64,000 bases of DNA from Mesostigma viride. Its lineage: Eukaryota; Streptophyta; Mesostigmatophyceae; Mesostigmatales; Mesostigmataceae. Below the pieces are notes generated by a model. That model was not told the origin of the DNA. It did no database searches and saw only the letters and a list, made by a program, of their open reading frames with translations. Both the position numbers and the translations under genes were made by a program. Positions within the stretch are counted from its first letter, which is position 1; every line of letters begins with the position of its first letter. Positions 1-36,392 of this stretch are shown piece after piece. The stretch covers positions 292,501 to 356,500 of the forward strand of contig RPFO01000594.1 of assembly GCA_009746045.1 (NCBI GenBank). Reading direction: 5' to 3'.

Positions 1-3000
1 TACATGCGCGCCAGGTCGTCCATCTTGCCGTCCCGCAGCAGCGCACGGCACCCGCTGTGCTCCTTGTCCAGCAGCTGCGCCTCGTACGTCGCCAGCACCT
101 CGTGCTCGACCGTCTTGAGCAGCTTCTCCTCGCTGCTCGCGTGCAGGTAGTGCCCCACACGCTCCTTCTCGCGCTTGAGGCATTCCTCCGCCTTGAGCAT
201 CACGGTCGGGCAGGAGTCCTCCTCCATCCACTTGGCCGCCTTGACACGGTAGTATGCAGCCGTGTCCTCGAGGATGGCAGCCTCAAACTCGGCCTCGTAC
301 GTGGCCATGTTGCCCATGCCCATCTCCACGAAGATGCCCACCACGTTCTTGAGCAGCGTGCGGTCGATCTGCTCGCCCTCGCGCTCGCGGTCGATCTGGG
401 TCGTGGATTAGGGGAAAGGGGGCGTGAATTACCCAGAAAGGGTCATTGGATTAGGGGAAAGGGGCCGTGGATGCAAGGGGAAGGGGTCGTGGATTAAGGG
501 AAAGGGGCGGATGGTTTTATGGGGGTTGTTAATGGGGAAAGGGCAGTTAGTTAGGTCATGGAAGGTGAAGGGGCGTTGTAAATAGTGGCCACAGTGAGTA
601 CATGGACACCAATGTCTGCAATATCAACCACTTGGAGGGCCCACACAAAGTGCGATGCCTAGTGGTAGACCCTGGAAGGTTCATCGCCCAGATTCAACAT
701 ATACTGTATACCTCTTTCACACTTACCTCCTTTACACCCATGCAGACACATCGATAGAAACACATTAATACACGTCAGACACAGGCATTGTCCTAACTGA
801 GCAGGCATTACTCTAACTGTACAGGCATTATCCTCATCGGGTTGCCACCATCCGGGAACGCCTCTATTGGGCACGCCGTTGCAGTTCCCCATTGCCAAGG
901 GTCAAGCGATGCTATTCGAATAGGCGTACGATCCCCTATCCAAGCTTACTTATCATAGGAACCTTGCGAGTACTGCTTCCGCACCCTCGGGGAGGGGGAG
1001 GAGTGTTACAGACGCGCAGCACAAGAGTCCGGCCACCATACTTGGTCACTACAATCCTTGGTCACCACAATAATGTGGATGGATGCCGTCGGCATGCCTG
1101 CAACACAATGCCCCCCCCCAAGGGGACAAAAGCTATACCAACGCAACTCCCATATAGTAAGCGCGGGGAAGGGTGGATCCTACTGCCGAGCCCGAGGTGC
1201 CTCGGCTGCACCTGGCCCTCTGCAATGGGGAACTGCACGGACGCACCAACCAGGTCCAGCTAGGAACATGTGTTTTCTGGTTTTATCCCGCCACTGGGTT
1301 TACATAACCCGACCTCCTGCAATAGGGAGCTGCATGGATGAAGATGGACCCGCCATACCAGAACCCTAACACAGCCATGTATCAGCCCCCACAGATAAGC
1401 CATGCACGTGCCCACAGCTCCCCTCCAAGAAAAGATTTGCGCCGCGTAAGGATGCCTGGACTATGCCCACCGCACCCCCCCCTTGAACAGAAGATATCAA
1501 ACACCACACACGCGAGTGCAGGCAGTGCCCCCCCCCCCCCCCCCCCCCATTGAACGGAAGATATTAACCACCGCACACCGAGTGCAGACGGCGTCCACCT
1601 CTGGCCGCAAGCACAAAGGCACAGCGCGTGCATGGTAAACCAGAAACAAAATACTACTATGCAGATATGGTATTAGGAAAAGAGCATGTGTGGTATATCA
1701 GAAACAAAATAAGCCGATGTGGAAATTAGAAAAAGAGCGTGCGTGGGTGGCAACGGCAACGTACCATCGCGATAACCGCCTCCCGCGTGCTGCCCTTGAG
1801 CTCGGCAAACACCTGGCGCGAGCACGGAGCGAGACGGGGATGCCAATGACCCCACCGTGTCCAAGTGGGTCAGTAAGACATACTAAGTTGTTTGAGGAAA
1901 ATGCCACCCCGTGCTCATGACAACACCGGGCAAGTTAAGGCTGAGCAAGACAGGCGCCCGCATCAACTACGCGGGCAATATAAAGGTACAGACACCGCGC
2001 GCTTAGAACGCCTGGCAAGCACAAAGCGAGGCAGGCACAATGATGTGTAAGGTTATTAGCTGAAGGCTATGGGTACAGCAAGTAAACAGCTGGTCGTAGA
2101 TATGCATGGGATGACCTTTTCTTGTTGTTGTTTCACCTGAGGCTTGGGGCACCTGGCGCGAAAACGCGAGGCAGGCATGCAAACATATGATGATACACGA
2201 ATGATGCACGCAGGAGCCTATAAATGGATGTGATGATATCGCGGATGTAACGTAACATGTATGTATGACGCGGCGGGATGAGATGGGATGGAATGGGGTG
2301 GGGTGGGGTGGGATGGGATGGGATGGGGTGGGATGGGATGGGATGGGATGGGATGGGATGGGATGGGATGGGATGGGATGGGATGGGATGGGATGGGATG
2401 GGATGGGATGGGATGGGATGGGATGGGATGGGATGGGATGGGATGGGATGGGATGGGATGGGATGGGATGGGATGGGATGGGATGGGATGGGATGGGATG
2501 GGATGGGATGGGATGGGATGGGATGGGATGGGATGGGATGGGATGGGATGGGATGGGATGGGATGGGATGGGATGGGATGGGATGGGATGGGATGGGATG
2601 GGATGGGATGGGATGGGATGGGATGGGATGGGATGGGATGGGATGGGATGGGATGGGATGGGATGGGATGGGATGGGATGGGATGGGATGGGATGGGATG
2701 GGATGGGATGGGATGGGATGGGATGGGATGGGATGGGATGGGATGGGATGGGATGGGATGGGATGGGATGGGATGTGTATGGTGTGATGTCATGTAGACG
2801 CCACCAGATGCTTGGGATGCGTGACATCATTACAACCATCATGCTGACGCTAGGGACACCTGGAAGCCAAAATTATGATCACCCCTAAGCCCCCTGCTCA
2901 CCCACTCCAATGCCTTGAAGCGCAAATTGACCCCCCCCCCCTTAAAATTCAGATTTCATGCACCACCCTCCCCCCCCGGTCCCCCCGTCCCCCCTTCCCC

Positions 3001-35500: not shown

Positions 35501-36392
35501 CTCGTCTCTCTTCCACTGAGCTTGGTAAGCCTGCCTGCGCACGTTTAGCTCGTGGCTCATATACTTGTTCTTGCGATGCTAGGTGTATCAAAACGGCACT
35601 GATACTGTATTGCCCGCGCTGCTGCAACGTGCCTGCCGGTTGCTTAGTTACAGGCAAGTGGAGACATGCTTTTGTTATGTCAGTAGGCAAGCCTTACTCT
35701 ACGATCTTTATGGCATGTCTCCCTTTCTCACTCCCGCCGCGCACTGACCAAGACAATCCTTTTATCCTCCGCCCTGTTTCTCTTTGCCTCTGCACCTTCC
35801 CCCCCCCCCCCTCTCTCTCTCTCCTCTCTCTCTCTCTCTCTCTCTCTCTCTCTCTCTCTCTCTCTCTCTCTCTCTCTCTCTCTCTCTCTCTCTCTCTCTC
35901 TCTCTCTCTCTCTCTCCCCCCCCCCCCCCCTCCCTCCTTCCCTCCCTCCCTCTATCTATCTATCTATTCTCTCTCTCTTCCTCCCCCCCCCCCCTCCCCA
36001 CCTCTTGGGCTCCCCAGGTGCAAACTGAGTTCTGCTGCTGCTCCGGCCCTCGCTATGAGGATCCCGACGCCAGCGCGCAGATCGCCAGCCTGCGCGTGGC
36101 CGAGGAGTTTGCCTACGAGCCCGAGACGACTGCCTACTACCCAGAGGAGCCGCCCGCGCCCGCGCCGACGGGGATCTCGTGGGGTGCGGAGCGTGACCAG
36201 CGGTACAGCGAATATGAGGACGAGGATGATTACTATGACAACGGGTACAATGACGGATACGGGGATGGGTACGGTGCTGAGGTGGAGATGGGGGCCACCC
36301 TGGGGGAGGGCATGTCGGCATCGTCAGGCCTGCAGCGCATGGCAATGGCGGTCGTGCCCTCGCCCAGCCTGGGCTACAGCCGGCGGTACTAA
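29534..36392 (+). CDS. Membrane-anchored M14 carboxypeptidase-like protein, probable pseudoenzyme
   Basis: Exons are 29534-29970, 31196-31417, 32172-32267, 33248-33473, 34176-34324, 35161-35296 and 36018-36392, giving 546 residues with consistent phases. Residues 20-34 form a signal peptide or anchor. The M14 fold is clear: YTEVLAFQVKLATQYPHLVS, IGYSSPPYSIPIYATRMTA, SMLHARDPASL, FIANPSGYE, PVDLNHNFGYKWG, YRGTAPFSEPESRALRDFV, AAYGGTITFPWS, HYAANGEMDGWLWEERGI. A transmembrane helix (about 380-402, IIIAFVVLGAILGLVMG) with a Cys cluster and a 125-residue acidic, Tyr-rich tail follow. Catalytic positions are altered: the HxxE zinc motif reads HARD (127-130), the third zinc His is Ala256, the substrate Arg after Asn203 is His204, and the catalytic Glu is Lys327. 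Tyr305 remains. It likely binds rather than cleaves. The intron after exon 6 begins GCAAGT, a GC-AG intron. Confidence 0.88.
31790..31999. repeat. 66-bp tandem repeat, three copies
   Basis: Each unit starts AGAAGCACGTTACTCCCTTA, contains GAATACCAGTTGCTCCGCAA, and ends in a T-run. It lies in intron 2 of the M14-like gene, about 170 bp before exon 3. Copies are nearly identical, hence recent. Confidence 0.95.
32400..32812 (+). repeat. About 59-bp minisatellite with donor-like core, seven copies
   Basis: Units read GAAACCGCACACAGGTAGGT then GATAAGCAGTTGGTTGGTAT and so on. The core CGCACACAG|GTAGGT resembles the exon 3 donor of this gene (ACGCACAG|GTGTGC at 32260-32273), so each copy carries a candidate 5' splice site. 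Confidence 0.92.
33460..33612 (+). repeat. Four tandem copies of the exon 4 donor junction
   Basis: The true junction GGCGTTCTCCGTCAAG|GTGAGG (donor at 33474) is followed by GCTGTTCGCGGTCAAG|GTGAGG, GGCGTTCATTGTCAAG|GTGAGC and GGCGTTCGCAGTCAAC|GTGAGG within 140 bp of intron. All keep a GTGAG donor. Confidence 0.9.
35811..35924. repeat. (CT)n dinucleotide array
   Basis: About 55 CT units are followed by C-runs in the last intron of the M14-like gene, extending the pyrimidine tract before the acceptor at 36017. Confidence 0.97.

Follow-up and report, generated by a model that had tools for sequence, protein, structure and literature searches.

Copies of exon borders in the introns of Mesostigma viride and their probable origin in recurrent short tandem duplication

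Intronic minisatellites are built of units of tens of nucleotides that follow each other head to tail and show graded divergence. The same unit size, head-to-tail layout and graded divergence characterize the copies reported here for the alga Mesostigma viride, which are termed echoes and represent same-strand repetitions, within an intron, of the sequence straddling its border with the adjacent exon; unlike ordinary intronic minisatellites, the arrays seeded at borders hold a copy of coding sequence together with a splice site. Tandem duplication of an AGGT-containing exon segment is well described as a source of new introns in the available portions of two articles (PMC3443670, PMC2891723), and intron gain by tandem genomic duplication is also treated in the accessible part of a third (PMC4974935). 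As far as these texts go, the AGGT model resembles the present case in that a short tandem duplication puts an exon copy and a splice motif into the spliced-out part, and differs from it since the introns considered here pre-exist, the unit straddles an existing border, and copies accumulate with no new intron arising. Tandem repeats have further been found to become commoner close to the ends of introns, in Chlamydomonas and Volvox above all (PMC3887541), and the likeness lies in green-alga introns being rich in tandem repeats, more so near their ends; that analysis counts repeats by position, and its available sections do not mention exon sequence and splice site within the units. No description of border-straddling echo arrays was found in the full-text literature, a search with subscription journals mostly outside its reach.

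Genes of the window and their echoes

The window, i.e. the whole analysed stretch of 64,000 nucleotides (G000:C1989:292501-356500), belongs to an assembly of 440 Mb in 2243 contigs, and parts of it are made up of simple repeats. One light-harvesting protein encoded in this assembly resembles the green LHCII type, as expected either of a green alga or of an organism with plastid genes of green type. Exon models were built for its three intron-bearing genes and checked against Pfam and, for two of them (M14 and cullin), against solved structures; a self-written spliced protein-to-DNA aligner was also applied, and exon borders were placed mostly by homology. Gene A encodes an M14 zinc carboxypeptidase (29534..36392, plus strand; PF00246, E 2.3e-34) in seven exons (29534-29970, 31196-31417, 32172-32267, 33248-33473, 34176-34324, 35161-35296, and 36018-36392), for which the aligner gives the same borders as the model, the last exon ending short of the stop codon. 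The intron after 35296 is GC-AG. Spliced alignment of a paralogue on contig C2133 revealed six introns in common with gene A, in phase. Gene B (17572..26547, minus strand; 907 aa) has nine exons with all introns in phase 0 and no Pfam match, its borders being derived from reading frame and splice motifs only, without homologue backing. Gene C is the 5′ part of a cullin (1..7578, minus strand; PF00888, E 1.4e-61) with exons at 7578-7442, 7269-7170, 4025-3840, 1812-1765, and 395-1. A Mpo1-like gene (PF06127) lies at 8851.

At each of 36 window junctions, 55 nt around the border were compared with the own intron, and the score was set against those of 326-352 random window segments per test. Six junctions scored above every random segment: the donors of M14 intron 4 and of gene B introns 4, 6, 7, and 8, and the acceptor of gene B intron 8. 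A seventh echo, at the donor of cullin intron 3, is masked as low complexity and, unmasked, reaches 38, the highest of 2000 random segments being 28. The M14 intron 1 donor was borderline (5 of 348 random segments) and was left out of the count; with it included, 29 of the 36 junctions yielded no clear echo. Thus border-straddling same-strand copies, as stated in the original prediction, do rise above random segments at 7/36 junctions, in three host genes. Their presence in all four host genes, also claimed there, is not borne out (genes were perhaps counted differently), the Mpo1-like gene showing no intron in the one reading frame examined, and the stated number of about a dozen fits a tally of copies.

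The seven echoes score 31-63 and their reversed-strand counterparts 16-27, with little distance between the two at gene B intron 6 (31 vs 27 reversed), and several junctions possess two to four copies in alignments that cross the border. In gene A the exon-4 donor (border 33473/33474) is followed on the plus strand by a degenerate tandem array of three echoes (33505-33543, 33552-33572, and 33587-33609). All others lie on the minus strand. The donor of gene B intron 4 (border 23935) has an echo at 23547..23594 scoring 56 over 48 nt; that of intron 6 (border 21922) has four diverged ones with scores of 26-31 (21848-21819, 21616-21559, 21541-21509, and 21484-21466); that of intron 7 (border 20609) has two at 20197-20155 (score 63) and 19924-19877 (score 45), along with a weaker gapped one at 19819-19723. 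For the intron 8 donor (border 19071) the echo occupies 18958..19044, its alignment spanning 86 nt of exon and 9 nt of intron, while the acceptor of the same intron (border 18156) is accompanied by three copies (18290-18238, 18362-18344, and 18486-18458). The cullin intron 3 donor (border 3840) is echoed at 3674..3697 in the unmasked test.

Echoes in a wider sample of genes

Because the window had been picked for its echoes, a wider sample was assembled. A Pfam search of the assembly gave 129 kinesin exon matches, from which 22 kinesin genes on 22 contigs were taken because a number of their exon matches lay close together, and not for echoes, a choice that favours short introns; their borders were placed by alignment to a single-exon kinesin from the same genome. 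Together with genes A, B, and C, counted in the total though picked for their echoes, and the carboxypeptidase paralogue, the full sample covers 26 genes located on 23 contigs and has 189 junctions. Left out of the junction count were introns below 150 nt, exons below 40 nt, and those kinesin junctions whose donor or acceptor consensus was weak.

A same-strand copy of the border was found in the own intron at 41/189 junctions (donors 28/93, acceptors 13/96), with the cullin intron 3 donor entered as a miss; for kinesins alone the counts are 22/71 and 9/74. At least one echo is present in 13/22 kinesin genes and in 16/26 of all genes, so the habit predicted beyond the window is supported. The 26 genes hold 83 copies, at most nine at one junction, with a median identity of 0.85, and the median offset among listed values is 173 nt for donors and 224 nt for acceptors. 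The test fixed beforehand, an excess over other introns and over the reversed strand, came out in favour of echoes for donors (28/93 vs 9/1860) and acceptors (13/96 vs 11/1920) alike: the same queries matched other introns in 20/3780 comparisons and other introns reversed in 14/3780, and none of the 189 junction queries matched the own intron reversed. Echoes are a genuine feature of this alga and are not confined to the window.

That they are artefacts produced by chance, low complexity, misplaced exon borders or misassembly is very improbable, although simple repeats occur in the window, borders lack transcript backing and gene B lacks a homologue: the tests were masked and controlled with reversed sequence and other introns, M14 borders are backed by the paralogue with the same introns and cullin and kinesin borders by homology, and identity lies at 79-90% for half of the copies, unlike an assembly duplication. 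An origin of echoes from fragments of an Introner or of a dispersed mobile element is less likely still, and we consider it next to negligible. Mobile elements do occur in these introns, as exemplified by an insertion with identical 730-bp terminal repeats (L048), but echo queries seldom match other introns, and the gene B intron 8 donor border with its echo (18940-19120), the one stretch tried as a query, had no match in the assembly apart from itself. Introners would place near-identical intron sequence in a multitude of unrelated genes, which was likewise not seen with the junction queries (20/3780).

Exon borders, intron interiors and the donor excess

The rate of local copying was profiled with 40-nt queries stepped across the border and scored for a local copy; introns below 400 nt were left out of this profile and of the donor-excess tests, and queries with more than 10 or more than 15 masked bases were omitted from sliding scans. 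At donors the counts rise from 2/274 at -60 to -160 in the exon through 5/71 at -40 and 16/76 at -20 to 23/75 at the border (0), with 130/752 at 60-240 nt inside the intron; at acceptors, from exon to intron, they are 1/282, 4/74, 11/78, 14/74, and 138/721. The echo rate thus climbs from exon to intron, and the border behaves about as any intronic position does, with a peak above that level at donors. Local copies exist for 17-19% of 40-mers in intron interiors, for less than 1% in exon interiors (1-6% in looser scans), and for 10.6% in flanking DNA.

The looser scans used 55-nt queries and a score of 30. Two-sided over 1 kb in the window, copies were recorded at 30/180 for junctions, 239/1210 for introns, 161/1112 for intergenic DNA, 365/2248 for the repeat-rich part, and 18/334 for exon interiors (reversed: 3/180, 48/1210, 44/1112, 118/2248, and 10/334). 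One-sided over 900 nt, window genes plus paralogue yielded 6/24 donors and 4/24 acceptors, with 89/745 and 97/745 in introns and 2/163 and 5/163 in exon interiors, and 15 kinesins yielded 18/57 donors and 9/58 acceptors, with 296/1166 and 316/1175 in introns and 10/172 and 4/166 in exon interiors. In a 180-kb flank on the same contig, 230/2172 40-mers outside predicted exons had a downstream copy (18/2172 reversed), a count that may retain introns and missed exons, exons having been removed by a home-made gene finder; introns of the 26 genes exceed this flank rate (365/2145, reversed 20/2145). The finder was trained on these same genes and recovered 39/42 known window exon ends in one setting; run over flank plus window, it missed gene A as well as an exon of gene B and strung together retroelement fragments and exons of doubtful status. 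Its models were kept out of the junction counts. The rates in intron interiors and flank imply that duplication is general to non-coding DNA and commoner in these introns. The splice-junction echo is therefore mostly a border-straddling slice of a general process. Specificity for the border, implied by the original prediction, is rejected for acceptors and mostly for donors, intron interiors having copies almost as often; what survives of it is a modest excess at donors only.

This excess amounts to 0.152 (donors 0.322 vs intron plateau 0.170; gene-bootstrap 95% CI 0.058-0.240), a ratio of 1.9, and for kinesins alone the values are 0.339 vs 0.181 (CI 0.044-0.262 at score 28). It persists under other masks at score limits of 26 and 28; with a limit of 32, zero lies within the interval or at its edge, and with one of 38 zero falls inside, the kinesin difference being 0.063 (CI -0.053 to 0.156). 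No excess over the intron plateau was found for acceptors, and donors surpass acceptors both in the full sample (28/93 vs 13/96, p = 0.008) and in kinesins alone (22/71 vs 9/74, p = 0.008), as well as when only the exon part of the border is considered (23/93 vs 12/96, p = 0.04). Echoes may be fewer at acceptors than at donors because additional AG sites upstream are harmful.

Donors exceeding both intron interiors and acceptors speak for the 5′ splice site region being itself a hot spot of duplication, with the acceptor unaffected; co-transcriptional R-loops at the end of the exon, suffering nicks or staggered breaks, are a conceivable route. If so, introns would lengthen from the 5′ side by taking up sequence of their own exons, and transcription or splicing at the exon end would cause or stabilise breaks that copy the border into the intron. 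We regard such targeting, its R-loop route included, as unlikely: the excess fades at high match scores, where a hot spot should be clearest; DNA outside predicted exons undergoes the same process; and selection, by freezing the exon copy, should produce part of the excess at the border. Uniform duplication simulated with constrained exons produced donor-to-intron ratios between about 0.9 and 1.35. That the donor excess stems only from a slower decay in the exon copy was also considered, and in simulation this accounts for at most part of it; nor do the simulations reproduce its shrinking at high match scores.

Structure of the copies, their origin and significance

Copies arranged head to tail in the same orientation, as tandem duplication or a minisatellite would leave them, are present in M14 intron 4 and in three further introns of distinct loci. 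The young cases are arrays of this kind, with a unit running from the exon into the intron. The last 25 nt of the exon are repeated exactly in L029 intron 2, spaced by 88, 83, and 83 nt, the unit beginning with the exon end; in L043 intron 1 the exon end is repeated at a spacing of 38 nt; and the acceptor of L036 intron 4 has a 59-nt unit in a family of nine related copies, the exon's own included, with older relatives upstream. That copies accumulate and seed minisatellites, as had been proposed, agrees well with these arrays. Not all echoes form clean ones, some older echoes being among the exceptions: in L031 intron 2 and gene B intron 7 an unrelated-looking spacer separates the copies, so that one simple tandem event is insufficient and later indels or insertions must be assumed.

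Two comparisons between gene copies bear on when duplications occurred. The carboxypeptidase paralogue carries echoes at 2A, 3A, 4A, and 5D, gene A at 4D, in introns held in common; since the positions differ, the echoes arose independently. The C887 and C1641 copies of a TCP-1 family gene, which align at 97-99% and may or may not be alleles, are set apart by a single 43-nt unit in an intronic array; this is one pair, and the array pre-existed and is not a border echo. Separately, these copies differ by an insertion of ~3.1 kb flanked by identical 730-bp repeats. Tandem duplication is recurrent here and, judging from this one case, is probably still going on.

The AGGT model would have both splice sites of an intron formed by two copies of one exon segment; echoes were found to partner one border only, and the intron positions of gene A are common to its paralogue. 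Gene B intron 2 is a possible exception.

It had also been suggested that echoes serve as decoy or reserve splice sites under selection, by recruiting U1 or providing alternative exon ends. An intact GT or AG in 28 of the 36 echoes covering the dinucleotide might be taken in favour of this, but overall identity alone predicts 26.8, and no conservation above the neutral expectation was found among these 36. Of 42 donor copies with GT, 14 lie at a multiple of three and 32 would add a stop codon, so that an in-frame, stop-free extension is available from only 3/42; mismatches at codon positions 1-3 are 0.142, 0.157, and 0.211, figures of little weight with paralogue rows out of frame; and echo positions are not common to the paralogue. 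Dinucleotide, frame and extension counts being those expected of neutral copies, decoy sites are left without support, and we hold such a function to be highly unlikely. Functional retention of echo sites, tried by dinucleotide, frame and codon tests, found no backing in any of them.

In our judgement, echoes are likely products of recurrent short tandem duplication for which borders are not the main target. The duplicated unit would start in the last tens of nucleotides of the exon and end in the intron, with the mirror image at acceptors; the outermost border presumably goes on splicing, and the spare copy, left in the intron, may drift, be re-duplicated into minisatellites or erode. Intron interiors and other non-coding DNA would be copied by the same process, and exon interiors are nearly devoid of copies presumably because selection removes duplications there. 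Slippage or patch repair of staggered breaks may be the molecular cause. Several observations sit uneasily with uniform tandem duplication: the donor-to-intron ratio of 1.9 surpasses the simulated range, introns above the flank (365/2145 vs 230/2172) indicate a process not perfectly uniform, the difference in copy number concerns a single event within an existing array, and unrelated-looking spacers interrupt some echoes.

At about one fifth of the sampled junctions the spliceosome is offered repeated versions of a single site within the transcript; some are identical, with position alone differing. If the sample is representative, this alga would provide a large natural experiment on splice-site choice among equals, 5′ or 3′, and would also show introns lengthening without mobile elements. 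For gene finders and studies of intron gain it carries a caution, namely that exon-like, splice-site-bearing sequence inside an intron may be something other than an alternative exon or a new intron.

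Repeats and a probable mobile insertion

The window carries four very long and almost pure microsatellites, namely GGGAT x100 (2275-2775), TAG x138 (9695-10107), ACTC x59 (13088-13323) and ATG x60 (17300-17478). At the border of its repeat-rich part, TRF delineates an array (40232-41939) of a 234-bp unit with 7.3 copies and 100% matches. Outside the window, comparison of the two near-identical copies of a TCP-1 family gene revealed an insertion in one of them (L048:545-3669), flanked by two identical 730-bp terminal repeats and missing from the copy on C887; it is probably a recent LTR element.

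Possible exon duplication in a predicted flanking gene

Upstream on the same contig, an unchecked gene-finder model (G000:C1989:182761-216673) has, by eye, a subtilase-like start followed by many 98-aa repeats. In this model the repeats mostly occupy one exon of 294 nt each, suggesting that the exons were duplicated one by one.

Intron borders and acceptor choice

Intron 6 of the M14 zinc carboxypeptidase gene (donor at 35297, GCAAGT) belongs to the GC-AG class, and its paralogue has GT at this donor. In the 60-nt intron 2 of the 907-aa protein gene (26162-26221, minus strand), similar border sequence is read by eye on both sides, ACGGTTA spanning the donor and following the acceptor; such two-sided likeness is the pattern expected under intron gain by tandem duplication. 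At the intron 4 acceptor of L036, a sampled locus outside the window, two near-identical 59-nt units, each comprising a pyrimidine tract, AG and exon start, are mutually out of frame because of their 59-nt spacing, and this pair represents a natural test of acceptor choice.
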